Below are positions 6,687 to 60,593 of a DNA stretch of 64,000 nt, piece after piece (the stretch's first letter is position 1; every line of letters starts with the position of its first letter). Position numbers and translations under genes: made by a program. Under the pieces are notes generated by a model, which was not told the origin of the DNA, did no database searches, and worked only from the letters and a program-made list of their open reading frames with translations. Origin of the DNA: Actinotalea sp. Marseille-Q4924 (GTDB lineage Bacteria > Actinomycetota > Actinomycetes > Actinomycetales > Cellulomonadaceae); assembly GCF_916618755.1 (NCBI RefSeq), contig NZ_CAKAKB010000003.1, forward strand, positions 558,001 through 622,000, read 5' to 3'.

Positions 6687-6993
6687 AGGTGGGGGCCTCT
6701 CGGGGCTCTCGGGGGTCGGGGTCCGCCGCCAGACAATCCGGGGGGATCTCCACGACGCAGGGCGCGCAGTCGAGCGCCGCCTCTGCGGCCACTCTCGCAC
6801 ACATCCCACGAATGCACGAGGTCGTGCTCGCCGGGGACGCCGCGCTGCCGGCTGTGACGTCGCTCTCGTCGAGGCCCAATAGTGTGAGAGCGCTCCACCT
6901 CCGGGCGTACCGTGCAGGGTGCCCGACCGGCACGAGGTGGCAGGGCGTCGGCCCGGCCACCCGGCAACGACAGCCCCAGGAGGGCCCCCCACG
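6687..6993. promoter_or_regulatory. 307-bp divergent intergenic region, helicase and PASTA lipoprotein promoters
   Basis: This region holds no supported gene. It must carry the promoters of the leftward helicase and the rightward lipoprotein. An imperfect palindrome TGAGAGCGCTCCAC at 6885-6898 has the GAGCGCTC core common in actinobacterial LacI-family operators such as CelR boxes, but two flanking positions fail the symmetry. AGGAGGG at 6978-6984 is the ribosome binding site of the lipoprotein gene. The long 5' leader of the helicase could form structures, as cold-shock helicase leaders do, though none stood out. Confidence 0.4.
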
Positions 6994-7383
6994 ATGATGC
7001 GTTCTTCCGTGCGTCCTGCACTGGCCGGCCTCGCGGCCGCCGCCGTCCTCATGACCGCCGCCTGCTCCGCGCAGGAGGAGCCGACCGGCACGGCGACCAC
7101 CGCGTCCCCGGAGGCCACCGAGTCGGCCGAGGCCACCGAGGAGCCCGCCGAGGAGGAGCCGGCCGACGGCCCCTCGGCGGTGCCGAACGTCACCGGTCTG
7201 ATCCTCGAGACCGGGCAGGCGAACCTCATGCTCGCCGGCCTGGAGGTCGAGCTCGTCGACGCGGCGGGCGCGCCGGTCGAGGTCGCGGACCCGATGACGT
7301 ACCTCGTCGTCGCGCAGGACCCCGCCGACGGCGAGCTGGAGCGTGGCGAGACGGTGACGCTCACGGTCGAGCCGCGCGGCTGA
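6994..7383 (+). CDS. Lipoprotein with a single PASTA domain
   Basis: This 129-residue protein has a signal peptide and a lipobox-like TAAC with Cys24, then a Thr/Glu/Pro-rich linker (about 25-60) and one PASTA domain (about 63-128, beginning VPNVTGL and ending VTLTVEPRG). PASTA domains bind peptidoglycan fragments in penicillin-binding proteins and PknB-type kinases, but here there is no kinase or transpeptidase domain. A cell-envelope sensor or scaffold role is an inference. The ATG at 6994 has AGGAGGG 9 nt upstream. A strong hairpin follows 27 nt after the stop, so it is probably monocistronic. Confidence 0.78.
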   Translation: MMRSSVRPALAGLAAAAVLMTAACSAQEEPTGTATTASPEATESAEATEEPAEEEPADGPSAVPNVTGLILETGQANLMLAGLEVELVDAAGAPVEVADPMTYLVVAQDPADGELERGETVTLTVEPRG

Positions 7384-7410
7384 CCCACCGACGGCGACGT
7401 CGCACACCAC

Positions 7411-7442
7411 AGGAGCCGGGACCCGGTCGGGTCCCGGCTCCT
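7411..7442 (+). terminator. Perfect 14-bp hairpin after PASTA lipoprotein gene
   Basis: Arms AGGAGCCGGGACCC and GGGTCCCGGCTCCT pair perfectly around a GGTC loop. No U-tract follows, which is common for actinobacterial terminators. Confidence 0.8.
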
Positions 7443-7513
7443 GCGCGTCGGGCGCCCGCAGGGGAGGACCTTCCGACCTGGGGCGTCCGCGACCACCGCG
7501 CGACGCTGGACGC

Positions 7514-8980
7514 ATGGGCGACCACCCGACACTGCGCTTCCTCGGTGCCGCGGGCACCGTCACCGGCAGCCGCTTCCTGGTCGAGTGGCACGGGCACCGG
7601 CTGCTGGTCGACTGCGGGCTGTACCAGGGGGAGCGGGAGTGGCGACGGCGGAACTGGGAACCGTTCCCCGTCGACCCGGCGTCGATCGACGTCGTCCTGC
7701 TGACCCACTGCCACCTGGACCACAGCGGCTGGCTCCCGCGACTCGTCCGCGACGGCTTCACCGGGTCCGTCTGCATGACGGAGGGCACCGCAGCCCTGAC
7801 GGAGATCGTCCTGCGGGACAGCGCGCGACTCAACGAGCGCGACGCGGCGCAGGCGCGCGCGGGCGGCTGGTCGCGCCACGACCCGCCCCTGCCGCTGTAC
7901 TCCGCCGCCGACGCGGAGCTCGCCATCCGGCAGTTCCGCGCCGTCCCGACCGGCGTGCCCGTCGACGTCGCCGACGGCGCCCGGGCGACCTTCCGTCCGG
8001 CGGGGCACGTGCTCGGCGCCGCGAGCGTCCGGCTCGAGGTCGGGCGGGCGCCCGGTGCCACCGTCCTGTTCTCCGGCGACCTCGGGCGGGACGACCACCC
8101 GGTGCTGCGCCGGCGCGCCGCACCGGCGGCGGCGACGACCGTCGTCGTCGAGTCGACCTACGGCGACCGGACGCACCCGCGCGTCCAGCCGGCCCACGAG
8201 CCCTTCGCCGACGCGATCCGGCGGACCGTCGCCCGCGGTGGCTCGGTCCTCGTCCCCGCGTTCGCCGTCGACCGCACCGAGCTCGTGCTCCATGCCCTGC
8301 AGGCGATGCGGCGTGAAGGACGCATCCCCCGCGTCCCGGTGTACGTGGACAGCCCCATGGCGCTCGCGGCGCTCGACGTCTACCGGCGCCCCTCGCTGCG
8401 GCCCGAGCTGCGGCCGGACGTCCCGGTGCCCCTCGTCGACCTTGCCGACGTCCACGCCGCCCGCACGCCGGAGGAGTCCATGGCGCTCAACGCGCCGCAC
8501 GTGCCGTGCATCGTCGTGTCCGCGTCGGGCATGGCCACCGGAGGCCGGGTCGTCCACCACCTGCGGCACATGCTGCCCGACCACCGCAACGCCGTCGTCC
8601 TGACCGGCTACCAGGCGCCCGGGACGCGTGGCCGCGCCCTGCGCGACGGTGCGCGTGAGCTCAAGGTCCACGGCCGGTACGTGCCCGTGCGGGCCGAGGT
8701 CGTCGTGGACGAGGAGTTCTCCGTCCACGCCGACGCCGACGAGCTGGTCTCCTGGCTGCGCGAGCTGCCGGCTCCGCCCGCCGTCGTCTACGTGGTCCAC
8801 GGCGAACCGGAGGGGTCGGCGGCGCTCGCCGCACGCATCCGGACCGAGCTCGGCTGGCTCGCCGTCGTCCCCCGGGCGGGGGAGCGCGTCGCGCTCGACG
8901 ATGCGCCGGTGGACCTGGGGACCGGCGACGCCCCAGCCGTCGGTGCGGCGGTCGTACCACCGGCCGACGTTCAGGCGTAG
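7514..8980 (+). CDS. Beta-CASP metallo-beta-lactamase-fold hydrolase (RNA specificity domain type)
   Basis: This 488-residue protein carries the metal-binding LTHCHLDHSG near residue 62, GHVLGAASVR, FSGDLGR, a beta-CASP domain (about 210-340) with VESTYGDRTHP, and C-terminal SASGMATGGR and GYQAPGTRGR. Members of this group are RNA nucleases or related phosphodiesterases of the CPSF73/YSH1 type. It probably acts on RNA, but no substrate can be inferred. GACGCT ends 6 nt before the ATG. The last 10 bp overlap the convergent kinase gene. Confidence 0.88.
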   Translation: MGDHPTLRFLGAAGTVTGSRFLVEWHGHRLLVDCGLYQGEREWRRRNWEPFPVDPASIDVVLLTHCHLDHSGWLPRLVRDGFTGSVCMTEGTAALTEIVLRDSARLNERDAAQARAGGWSRHDPPLPLYSAADAELAIRQFRAVPTGVPVDVADGARATFRPAGHVLGAASVRLEVGRAPGATVLFSGDLGRDDHPVLRRRAAPAAATTVVVESTYGDRTHPRVQPAHEPFADAIRRTVARGGSVLVPAFAVDRTELVLHALQAMRREGRIPRVPVYVDSPMALAALDVYRRPSLRPELRPDVPVPLVDLADVHAARTPEESMALNAPHVPCIVVSASGMATGGRVVHHLRHMLPDHRNAVVLTGYQAPGTRGRALRDGARELKVHGRYVPVRAEVVVDEEFSVHADADELVSWLRELPAPPAVVYVVHGEPEGSAALAARIRTELGWLAVVPRAGERVALDDAPVDLGTGDAPAVGAAVVPPADVQA

Positions 8981-57169: not shown

Positions 57170-58597
57170 ATGCGCAGAGCCAAGATCGTATGCACCATCG
57201 GACCCGCGACGGCGTCGCCCGAGCAGCTCCAGGCCCTGGTCGACGCGGGCATGGACGTGGCGCGGATCAACCGCAGCCACGGTGACGCCTCCGAGCACGA
57301 GGTCGTCTACCACAACGTCCGTGCCGCGGCGCAGGCCGCCGGCCGCGCCGTCGCGGTCCTCGTCGACCTCCAGGGCCCGAAGATCCGCCTGGGGCGGTTC
57401 GTCGACGGCAAGCACGAGCTCGCCGAGGGCGACGTGTTCACCATCACCACGGAGGACGTCCCGGGCACGAAGGAACTCGTCTCCACCACCTACAAGGGGC
57501 TGCCCGGCGACGCCAAGGTGGGCGACCGCATCCTCATCGACGACGGCCGCGTGGCCGTCCGGATCACCGCCGTCGAGGGTCCCCGCGTGGTGACACGCGT
57601 GGAGGTCCCGGGCCCCGTCTCCAACAACAAGGGCCTCAACCTCCCGGGTGTCGCGGTGAGCGTGCCCGCCATGTCCGACAAGGACGAGCAGGACCTGCGC
57701 TGGGCGCTGCGCCTGGGCGCGGACATCATCGCCCTGTCGTTCGTCCGCAGCGCCGCGGACTACGAGGACGTCGCGCGCATCATGCGCGAGGAGGGCCGGA
57801 CGGTCCCCGTCATCGCCAAGGTCGAGAAGCCGCAGGCGGTCGAGAACCTCGCCGAGATCGTCGACGCGTTCGACGGCGTCATGGTCGCGCGCGGTGACCT
57901 GGGCGTCGAGCTCCCGCTCGAGCAGGTGCCGCTGGTCCAGAAGCGCGCCATCGAGCTGTCGCGTCGCTCCGCCAAGCCGGTCATCGTCGCGACCCAGGTC
58001 CTGGAGTCGATGATCTCGGCACCGCGGCCGACGCGCGCCGAGGCCAGCGACTGCGCGAACGCCGTCCTGGACGGGGCGGACGCCGTCATGCTGTCCGGCG
58101 AGACCAGCGTCGGCGAGTACCCCATCGAGGCCGTGCGCACCATGGCGCGGATCATCGAGAACACCGAGGAGCACGGCTTCGAGCGGATCGCCCCGCTCGG
58201 GTGGACGCCGCAGACCCGCGGCGGCGCCATCACGCGTGCGGCGGCGGAGATCGGCGAGACGCTGGGCGCGAAGTACCTCGTCACCTTCACGCAGTCCGGC
58301 GACTCGGCCCGGCGCGTGTCGCGACTGCGCGCGCACATCCCGCTCGTCGCGTTCACGCCGGTCAAGCATGTGCGGAACACCCTGGCGCTGAGCTGGGGCG
58401 TGCAGACGTACGAGGTGCCGACCGTCGAGCACACCGACGCGATGGTGCGGCAGGTCGACCAGACCCTGCGCGCGAACGGCATGGCGGAGGACGGCGACAT
58501 CGTCGTCATCGTGTTCGGCGCGCCGGTCGGCGTCCCGGGCACGACCAACTCCCTCACCGTGCACCGCATCGGCACGGAGGCCCAGCGCAAGGGCTGA
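57170..58597 (+). CDS. pyk: Pyruvate kinase
   Basis: This 475-residue enzyme makes pyruvate and ATP from phosphoenolpyruvate and ADP in glycolysis. It starts MRRAKIVCTIGPA, with phosphate-site Arg in VARINRSHG, the catalytic IAKVEKPQAVENL, the metal-binding DGVMVARGDLGVE, and domain C with TQSGDSARRVSR. The gene has its own leaderless promoter and a strong terminator, so it stands alone after gltBD. Confidence 0.97.
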   Translation: MRRAKIVCTIGPATASPEQLQALVDAGMDVARINRSHGDASEHEVVYHNVRAAAQAAGRAVAVLVDLQGPKIRLGRFVDGKHELAEGDVFTITTEDVPGTKELVSTTYKGLPGDAKVGDRILIDDGRVAVRITAVEGPRVVTRVEVPGPVSNNKGLNLPGVAVSVPAMSDKDEQDLRWALRLGADIIALSFVRSAADYEDVARIMREEGRTVPVIAKVEKPQAVENLAEIVDAFDGVMVARGDLGVELPLEQVPLVQKRAIELSRRSAKPVIVATQVLESMISAPRPTRAEASDCANAVLDGADAVMLSGETSVGEYPIEAVRTMARIIENTEEHGFERIAPLGWTPQTRGGAITRAAAEIGETLGAKYLVTFTQSGDSARRVSRLRAHIPLVAFTPVKHVRNTLALSWGVQTYEVPTVEHTDAMVRQVDQTLRANGMAEDGDIVVIVFGAPVGVPGTTNSLTVHRIGTEAQRKG

Positions 58598-58655: not shown

Positions 58656-60041
58656 TCAGCGCAGCCGATCAGCGGCGACGGGCCGCACGGCGCCACCGGA
58701 CGCGACCGCGCGGTCGGCGTCCTCGAGCACGAGGTCGTGGTCGATCGCGATCGCCGCTCGGGCGCCGTCCGCGGCCGCGGTCACCACCTGTGCCTGCGCC
58801 TGCGCGACGTTGCCCGCGGCCCACACGCCGGGCACGGCCGTCGCCCCCCGCTCGTCCGTCCGGACGCACTCCCCGAAGGGACCGGCCTCGAGCTCGACGC
58901 CGGCGCCGACCAGGAGGTCGTCGCGTGCGACGACGCGCGGCTGCACGACGACGGCGTCGCAGGGCAGCGTCCGTCCGTCCGCCAGGCGCAGGCCGACGAC
59001 CCGGTCGTCCTCGACGAGCAGCCCCTCCACGTCCCCCTCGACGACGTCCACGCCCGTCGCGGCCAGCCGTCGGCGGGCGACCCCGTCGACGGGCTCGCCG
59101 GCGTAGCGGTGCAGGACGAGCGTCACCGTCGGGGACCACTGCCGCACCGTGAGCGCCTTGTCGACCTCGGCCGCGTGCGTCGCGAGCACGACGAGACGCT
59201 GGTCCCGGTGCTCCCAGCCGTGGCAGTACGGGCAGTGCAGCACGTCGCGTCCCCAGCGCTCCTCCATGCCCGCGATCTCGGGGAGCACGTCGCGCATGCC
59301 CGAGGTCACCAGGACGCGCCGCGCCCGGAGGCGCGCTCCGTCCGCGAGGCTGACCGTCAGCGGGTCGGGATGGGGCGTCACCGCCGGCTGCATCCCGGGG
59401 GCCCGCGTCCCGGCAGGCTCCGTGCCGGAGTGCTCCGCGCCGGGCTGCTCCGCCGGCGTCACGGCCGTCACCGTCGCCGTGCGCAGCCGTACGCCGTACC
59501 TCTCGACCTCCTCGCGGCCTCGCGCGAGGAGCTCCAGGGGCCGTGCCCCCTCCTGGCCGAGGTAGCCGTGGACGTGGTCGGCGGCAGCGTTCCGGGGCCG
59601 CCCGTCGTCCACGACGACGACGTCGCGCCGCGACCGCCCGAGCAGGAGGGCGGCGGTGAGCCCCGCGGGCCCGCCCCCGACGACGACGACGTCGTGGACC
59701 CGCCGGTCGTCGTCCTCGTCGGTACCGCCCGCATCCGCCGGGTCGCCCCCGGGCTCGTCCGGGTCGCTGGGGGAGCCGTCCGACGACGTCGGCCGGCTCG
59801 CCGTGACGAGCCGGACGTCGGACACACGGCCGGGGGTGTCCTCGCCGCGCAGGAGGGTCAGCAGGCGGTCGACGTCACGGGCGGAGCCTGCGACCCGGAT
59901 CTCCACGGTGCCGTCCGGCAGGTTCCTGGCCTCGCCCTGCAGGCCGAGCTCGTGGAGCCGCCGGCGCGCCCACCACCGGAAGCCCACGCCCTGGACGCGT
60001 CCGGAGACCAGGACGGTGGCGGTGAGCGGGCTGTCGTCCAC
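58656..60041 (-). CDS. Fusion of acylphosphatase and thioredoxin-reductase-like flavoprotein
   Basis: This 461-residue protein joins two domains in one frame. Residues 6-84 are an acylphosphatase with catalytic Arg22 (GRVQGVGFR) and Asn40 (ARNLPDGT). A linker of Asp, Ser, Pro and Gly (85-115) follows. Residues 117-450 are an FAD/NAD(P) oxidoreductase of the thioredoxin reductase superfamily, with FAD motif GGGPAG at 122-127 and redox pair Cys270-Pro-Tyr-Cys273 in CPYCHGWEHRD. An additional low-complexity insert lies near 197-220. AAGGAG precedes the GTG at 60041. No start codon before the flavoprotein part would allow separate translation. The biological reason for the fusion is unknown. Confidence 0.88.
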   Translation of the reverse strand: MDDSPLTATVLVSGRVQGVGFRWWARRRLHELGLQGEARNLPDGTVEIRVAGSARDVDRLLTLLRGEDTPGRVSDVRLVTASRPTSSDGSPSDPDEPGGDPADAGGTDEDDDRRVHDVVVVGGGPAGLTAALLLGRSRRDVVVVDDGRPRNAAADHVHGYLGQEGARPLELLARGREEVERYGVRLRTATVTAVTPAEQPGAEHSGTEPAGTRAPGMQPAVTPHPDPLTVSLADGARLRARRVLVTSGMRDVLPEIAGMEERWGRDVLHCPYCHGWEHRDQRLVVLATHAAEVDKALTVRQWSPTVTLVLHRYAGEPVDGVARRRLAATGVDVVEGDVEGLLVEDDRVVGLRLADGRTLPCDAVVVQPRVVARDDLLVGAGVELEAGPFGECVRTDERGATAVPGVWAAGNVAQAQAQVVTAAADGARAAIAIDHDLVLEDADRAVASGGAVRPVAADRLR

Positions 60042-60084
60042 GGGCTCTCCTTCGCGCGGGGCGGTACGGGCGGGGGACGAACGA

Positions 60085-60109
60085 AGGGGCGGCCCGGTGG
60101 GCCGCCCCT
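60085..60109 (-). terminator. Hairpin after DUF4383 gene
   Basis: AGGGGCGGCCC and GGGCCGCCCCT pair perfectly around GGT, 41 nt downstream of the leftward stop codon. Confidence 0.75.
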
Positions 60110-60149: not shown

Positions 60150-60593
60150 TCACACGCGGTCGCGGTGGCGGTCCGGCCACAGGGCGATGACGAGGCCGGC
60201 GAGGGCGCTCACCAGGTGCAGCACGTTGTCCGCACCGTTGATGTTGAGGAAGTTGATGTCGGGGTTGTTCACGGCGAGGAGCCCGTACAGGAACGTCGCG
60301 CCGTAGCCGACGGCGAGCAACCAGCCGTACGTCCGCGCGCCCGACCGGGTGCGCCACAGGGCCACACCGGCCGCGCCGATGATCAGGTGGACGATGTTGT
60401 GCAGCGGGTTCACGTGGAAGCCCAGCAGGCTCTTGCTGTCGTCGTGCTGGGCGAAGCCGTCGAACCCGGTCACGAGGAAGCCTGCGAGCCCCACGAGAAG
60501 GTAGACGACGCCGATCGTGAGCGCGAGGTACTGGTACGGCGCACGGTCGGTCGTGCGGGCGGTCCCGGCTGAGCCGGTCGTCGGGTGGGACAT
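60150..60593 (-). CDS. DUF4383 domain membrane protein
   Basis: This 147-residue protein has four membrane helices and the DUF4383 features QYLALTIGVVYLLVG, FHVNPLHNIVHLIIGA and INGADNVLHLVSALAGL. Repeated His and Asn residues next to the membrane are family features. Function is unknown. AAGGGGG precedes the ATG at 60593. Confidence 0.82.
   Translation of the reverse strand: MSHPTTGSAGTARTTDRAPYQYLALTIGVVYLLVGLAGFLVTGFDGFAQHDDSKSLLGFHVNPLHNIVHLIIGAAGVALWRTRSGARTYGWLLAVGYGATFLYGLLAVNNPDINFLNINGADNVLHLVSALAGLVIALWPDRHRDRV

Follow-up and report, generated by a model that had tools for sequence, protein, structure and literature searches.

An acylphosphatase fused to an HlmI-like flavoprotein domain in one small bacterial species group

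The 64,000-nucleotide stretch of Actinotalea sp. Marseille-Q4924 DNA analysed here (the window: positions 558001-622000 of contig 3, in a 3.64-Mb genome that we call G000) encodes, in a single frame, an acylphosphatase domain joined to a flavin adenine dinucleotide (FAD) domain with a CPYC redox pair. Both domains score far over their Pfam cut-offs, well above what chance would give, in agreement with a preliminary description of this DNA, which had joined an acylphosphatase to a CxxC flavoenzyme in one frame. The fusion was found in one small species group only, where two further genomes (G013 and G011) carry it. On balance, we regard it as a clade-specific and seemingly vertically inherited fusion of an acylphosphatase with a dithiol oxidase resembling HlmI, the two halves of which probably act independently. 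The fusion is real, though its meaning is probably modest. The gene, its parts and its two counterparts are as follows.

58656..60041, minus strand: fusion gene, 461 residues, open from a GTG start to the stop, with PF00708 and Pyr_redox_2 matches
60047..60052, minus strand: AAGGAG, Shine-Dalgarno sequence of the fusion gene, 5 nt upstream of the GTG
59793..60041, minus strand: acylphosphatase domain, residues 1-83, short type without the last edge strand (PF00708, residues 9-83)
59976..59978, minus strand: codon of Arg22, presumed phosphate-binding (motif alignment to solved acylphosphatases)
59922..59924, minus strand: codon of Asn40, presumed catalytic (motif alignment to solved acylphosphatases)
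59703..59792, minus strand: linker, residues 84-113, predicted disordered and not conserved (low model confidence, variable length)
58698..59702, minus strand: FAD domain, residues 114-448, HlmI-like
59223..59234, minus strand: CPYC redox pair, residues 270-273 (HCPYC in 55 of 55 aligned rows)
L178, from a start taken as 6890 to 8167: fusion of G013, same fused frame
L179:7362-8681: fusion of G011, same fused frame

The N-terminal half is matched by PF00708 over residues 9-83 at 70.3 bits (Pfam cut-off 22.5); this is the only PF00708 match in the window genome, and the fusion proteins of G013 and G011 are matched as well. Arg22 and Asn40, which we take to have the phosphate-binding and the catalytic role, respectively, that these residues play in acylphosphatases, align with the VQGVGFR/VQGVGYR and RNLPDG/ENLPDG motifs of solved acylphosphatases and are invariant in all three fusions. 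The profile match ends at position 76 of 85. A structure model was built on an alignment of 55 rows (A5): the three fusions plus 52 FAD proteins that stand alone, selected by hand among 90 of 130 FAD frames, with no stand-alone acylphosphatases. The model has a beta-alpha-beta-beta-alpha-beta order of strands and helices over residues 5-82, with block means of the predicted local distance difference test (pLDDT) of 90-96 and no last edge strand. Some stand-alone acylphosphatases of the family or order end at about the same place by sequence (G025, G030, G043, G198, G209). The preliminary description had called this acylphosphatase complete; both active-site residues are indeed present, but the domain is complete only as a short subtype. 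Acylphosphatases act on acetyl phosphate, 1,3-bisphosphoglycerate and carbamoyl phosphate, and the physiological role of the bacterial enzymes is unsettled. The most likely activity of the N-terminal half, judged by its sequence, is hydrolysis of small acyl phosphates.

Three of the 19 genomes of the genus carry the fusion, the protein of G013 being 79% identical to that of the window and that of G011 about 50% identical in the acylphosphatase and 58% in the FAD part. In a tree of the adjoining pyruvate kinase gene (pyk), the three fusion genomes and G004 form one clade (100/99). G004 has no PF00708 match and is uninformative, because the gap in its assembly coincides exactly with the fusion locus: a truncated pyk is found near the start of one contig and the DUF4383 gene at the start of another. 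At the site adjacent to pyk, the 19 genomes comprise the three fusions, three cases of the FAD gene alone (G006, G007, G009), one of the acylphosphatase alone (G017), eleven in which neither gene was found (in one of these, G010, the pyk flank is visible over about 1 kb, to the contig end) and the assembly gap. Since the FAD gene or the acylphosphatase stands alone beside pyk in related genomes, the fusion looks local.

Trees of the two domains were also obtained. In the FAD tree (43 of the 55 A5 rows), the fused domains, the pyk-side FAD genes and one gene from G005 make up a supported group of seven (100/99), within which the fused three cluster (87/92, not starred). The acylphosphatase tree places the two kinds found in the genus on separate branches (99/92), the short FRWW type being that of the fused domains and G017 and the other that of the nine further genus rows included; monophyly of the three fused acylphosphatase domains is neither supported nor excluded (approximately unbiased test, p-AU 0.33). 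Another four PF00708 matches in the genus resemble HypF (L065, L062, L066, L067). L065 lies over the TIGR00143 (HypF) cut-off, and L062 is a truncated piece below it for which HypF is the only match. The stand-alone acylphosphatase gene of G017 (L220:6947-7222) is of the short type, adjoins pyk downstream of a frame read as an acyltransferase, and is an unfused counterpart of the fusion's first half.

The fusion was sought more widely. A search of the family (221 genomes) returned it in three genomes, among the matches listed. Draws of 396 genomes each from the order and the phylum gave a match to both domains in the window genome only, again among the matches listed; these draws have no independent positive control, because the listed matches include neither G013 nor G011. 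Up to 15 candidates per genome were scored in the family and 8 in each of the order and phylum, and a divergent fusion could be missed, because few candidates per genome were scored and the family matches were not all listed. The other 46 loci from the order and phylum searches contain no acylphosphatase. Some matches reach part-way into the acylphosphatase columns (e.g., G906, 49-186, and G748, 56-184; the locus was inspected for G906, not for G748). A candidate fourth fusion in G193, with a match spanning residues 17-184, was rejected, as it lacks an acylphosphatase and joins the FAD domain to a methyltransferase. Fused copies on plasmids were likewise rejected: 295 of 72,556 plasmid records matched, and none covers 80% of the query at one place. 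We found no description of the fusion in the open-licence literature searched. The preliminary description knew of no system combining the two activities, and within that literature this stands; the architecture appears undescribed. Both halves are members of known families.

The preliminary description further suggested that hydrolysis of acyl phosphates is coupled to thiol redox control. Were this so, the protein would be a bifunctional enzyme whose halves serve a single pathway or substrate; they might, for instance, clear an acyl phosphate and oxidise a dithiol of one and the same metabolite or regulator. In favour of this, both active sites are intact in the three fusions, the fusion is retained across a clade, and there is a distant parallel in TrhO/TSTD2, in which an acylphosphatase-like domain accompanies a thiol-bearing rhodanese domain; the paper on TrhO/TSTD2 states that no biochemical data support acyl-phosphate hydrolysis (PMC10135228). 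However, the two families are not associated outside the clade in the loci examined. No acylphosphatase lies near the FAD gene in 80 loci from named genomes (the best 80 of 538 relatives; up to 6 kb on each side, shorter at contig ends), and no FAD gene lies within a few kilobases on either side of 20 stand-alone acylphosphatase genes. Beside pyk, too, each gene occurs without the other in related genomes, and the pyk-side FAD genes of G006, G007 and G009 belong to genomes without any PF00708 match. The length and composition of the linker are also free. None of the findings shows joint action of the two halves, and we consider a coupled enzyme rather unlikely.

A stronger form of the proposal, in which a single enzyme links the acyl-phosphate pool to O2-using disulfide formation in the same metabolite or regulator, is quite unlikely. 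An acyl-phosphate-sensing or -clearing role would fit the glycolytic neighbourhood, with 1,3-bisphosphoglycerate or acetyl phosphate as the matching compound. If true, such a link would mean that one small clade of bacteria has a new kind of metabolic redox coupling, and cooperation of the halves would give a function to bacterial acylphosphatases and place an HlmI-type oxidase outside antibiotic synthesis. Even without cooperation, the locus is a clear example of gene fusion in which each unfused state can still be seen at the same place in related genomes.

The independent halves that we favour include a dithiol oxidase, and the C-terminal half could alternatively be a thiol-disulfide reductase dependent on reduced nicotinamide adenine dinucleotide phosphate (NADPH) or on NADH, as the preliminary description had proposed for NADPH. 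The Pyr_redox_2 match (residues 116-426) scores 79.5 bits against a cut-off of 26.1, and the CPYC pair named in that description is found at residues 270-273, in what used to be the NADPH domain and within an HCPYC motif invariant in all 55 A5 rows, the window protein included. The thioredoxin-reductase fold and the CxxC in its usual place are compatible with a reductase, as are the 7 of 55 aligned relatives that retain G.G at the columns of the NADPH motif. The window protein itself lacks both GGGxSA and HRR: it reads ATHAAE at the glycine motif, against GGGDSA in the genome's own TrxB, and LHR in place of the HRR of TrxB. PF00070 has no match in the fusion protein (it does match the product of a neighbouring ndh-like gene), and on TIGR01292 the protein scores 66.6 and 30.0 bits in two stretches and 96.7 as a whole, far under the curated cut-off of 343.45, which the separate TrxB of the genome exceeds (380.9). 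HlmI is the top match both by structure and by sequence, in a structure comparison that barely tests the acylphosphatase part of the chain. In both respects the FAD half is closer to the dithiol oxidases HlmI, GliT and DepH than to TrxB, and its nearest characterised solved relatives, HlmI and DepH, form disulfides. A reductase is thus unlikely. Judging by these similarities, the C-terminal half most likely turns a cellular or small-molecule dithiol into the disulfide through its CPYC pair. This corrects an easy mis-annotation, the CPYC flavoprotein resembling a thioredoxin reductase yet being without the usual NADPH motifs.

The two halves differ from the linker in predicted structure and in selection. 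The model of the whole protein (mean pLDDT 88.4, predicted template modelling score 0.73) has a well-formed FAD domain and a low-confidence linker, with block means of 40-63 over residues 81-110. Linker lengths are 30 residues in the window protein and 14 and 28 in the other two fusions. The preliminary description had reported an acidic linker, which is apt for the window protein (11 Asp or Glu in 30 residues) but not for the others (4 in 14 and 2 in 28). Between the closest pair, G000 and G013, the acylphosphatase has a ratio of nonsynonymous to synonymous substitution rates (dN/dS, by the Nei-Gojobori method) of 0.25, the FAD domain one of 0.20 and the linker, over 14 codons, one of 0.93; both domains are under purifying selection in this pair, and the linker is not. 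In the two comparisons with G011, the acylphosphatase has ratios of 0.65 and 0.56 and the FAD domain ratios of 0.35 and 0.46; these values are rough because synonymous change is large. An extra low-complexity loop of about 24 residues lies within the FAD domain of the window protein (59364-59435, residues 203-226) and is absent in G013 and G011.

These ratios bear on a neutral read-through fusion, one half of which would now be a passenger. The higher values of the acylphosphatase against G011 are in its favour, as is the seeming dispensability of acylphosphatases in the genus, 5 of the 19 genomes having no PF00708 match (among them G004, with its assembly gap). Invariance of Arg22, Asn40 and the loop motifs and the closest-pair ratio of 0.25 speak against it, and we hold a passenger half to be quite unlikely. 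An artefact of assembly or a frameshift, in which two genes would appear as one through a missed stop, has negligible probability: no point in its support was found, and the three genomes are in frame through different linkers with no stop. The doubt raised in the preliminary description, of a fusion absent from all relatives and owed to a missed stop, does not hold, as G013 and G011 carry the fused frame without one.

The possibility that the FAD half has a conserved internal start of its own was considered and rejected. For the window protein, GTG codons occur in frame at residues 73 and 144, and both lack a Shine-Dalgarno sequence at the proper spacing; in G013 a GTG stands exactly where the flavin domain begins, without a Shine-Dalgarno sequence, and in G011 one lies in the first strand of that domain, at residue 118, and has a GAGG 8 nt ahead of it. 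None is common to the three fusions. The statement in the preliminary description that there is no internal start therefore stands for conserved starts, but in-frame GTG codons do exist.

In the reading we favour, that of an acylphosphatase and a dithiol oxidase acting independently, the simplest history would start from two genes, one for a short-type acylphosphatase and one for an HlmI-like FAD dithiol oxidase, that were once neighbours beside pyk, and loss of the stop codon between them would have given the fusion. The product would be one chain with two folded catalytic domains and a floppy linker. Its acylphosphatase half would hydrolyse small acyl phosphates, and its FAD half would convert a dithiol to a disulfide at CPYC, with electrons passing to FAD and on to O2. 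The halves would probably act independently, and fusion would give them joint expression and a fixed 1:1 ratio.

The surroundings of the fusion gene in the window include three further features.

57170..58597, plus strand: pyk, pyruvate kinase, convergent neighbour and synteny anchor
60150..60593, minus strand: DUF4383 protein (PF14325), upstream neighbour, start assumed
60086..60108, minus strand: GC hairpin, terminator-like, between the DUF4383 gene and the fusion gene

The gene order gltB, gltD, pyk, fusion (convergent to pyk), DUF4383, ndh-like, metallophosphoesterase, PxpA is common to the three fusions; ndh-like is our reading of a gene whose NDH2_C match sits just under the cut-off. With gltBD, pyk, the DUF4383 gene and the ndh-like gene as neighbours, the fusion gene lies outside any natural-product cluster. 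The hairpin is followed on the minus strand by TTCGTTCG, and the 90-nt region folds 3.6 standard deviations below shuffled sequences; G013 has a similar inverted repeat in this place. The gap between the DUF4383 gene and the fusion is 108 bp in the window, 115 bp in G013 and 3 nt in G011. Because the hairpin or inverted repeat splits the two genes, the sequence suggests that they are transcribed separately in the window and G013, and the 3-nt gap suggests that translation of the fusion may be coupled to that of DUF4383 in G011.

Another FAD protein of this family is encoded elsewhere in the window genome (G000 C4:385535-386446; L038, L043, L299), with 40% and 64% identity in two pieces; it is unfused, because the fusion is the genome's only PF00708 match. 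Four other HlmI-like FAD proteins carry a C-terminal S-adenosylmethionine-dependent methyltransferase (Methyltransf_25; L106:5956-7500, L083:6031-7842, L104:6001-7581, L167:1525-3357). The thiopurine S-methyltransferase family (TPMT) also matches all four, over its cut-off in two. An oxidase and a possible S-methyltransferase on one chain would fit two ways of disarming a dithiol.

Several known systems resemble parts of the fusion. Small bacterial acylphosphatases (e.g., PDB 8JFS, 1V3Z) share PF00708 and the Arg and Asn motifs, but the domain in the window protein is fused and lacks the last edge strand. HypF, with an N-terminal acylphosphatase domain in a larger carbamoyltransferase, is the only other multi-domain PF00708 protein recognised in the genus, and its partner domains differ. 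In TrhO/TSTD2, likened here by description and not by sequence, an acylphosphatase-like domain precedes a reactive-cysteine domain as in the window fusion (PMC10135228), but the partner is a rhodanese rather than an FAD domain. The four FAD-methyltransferase proteins show the same FAD family with an extra enzyme on the chain, although that partner is C-terminal and a methyltransferase, whereas the partner here is an acylphosphatase. DepH, the FAD dithiol oxidase of romidepsin synthesis, has lower identity to the window protein (34%), and DnoP, an FAD dithiol oxidase of defence against dithiol toxins, is likened by description and not by sequence. The genes of HlmI, GliT and DepH lie in natural-product clusters and that of DnoP does not, so a cluster location is not obligatory. 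The closest system is HlmI of Streptomyces clavuligerus (PDB 4NTD), described as an FAD dithiol oxidase that uses O2 and is encoded in the holomycin cluster (PMC3826145); HlmI has no acylphosphatase, and the fusion gene, in contrast to its gene, stands between pyk and the DUF4383 gene.
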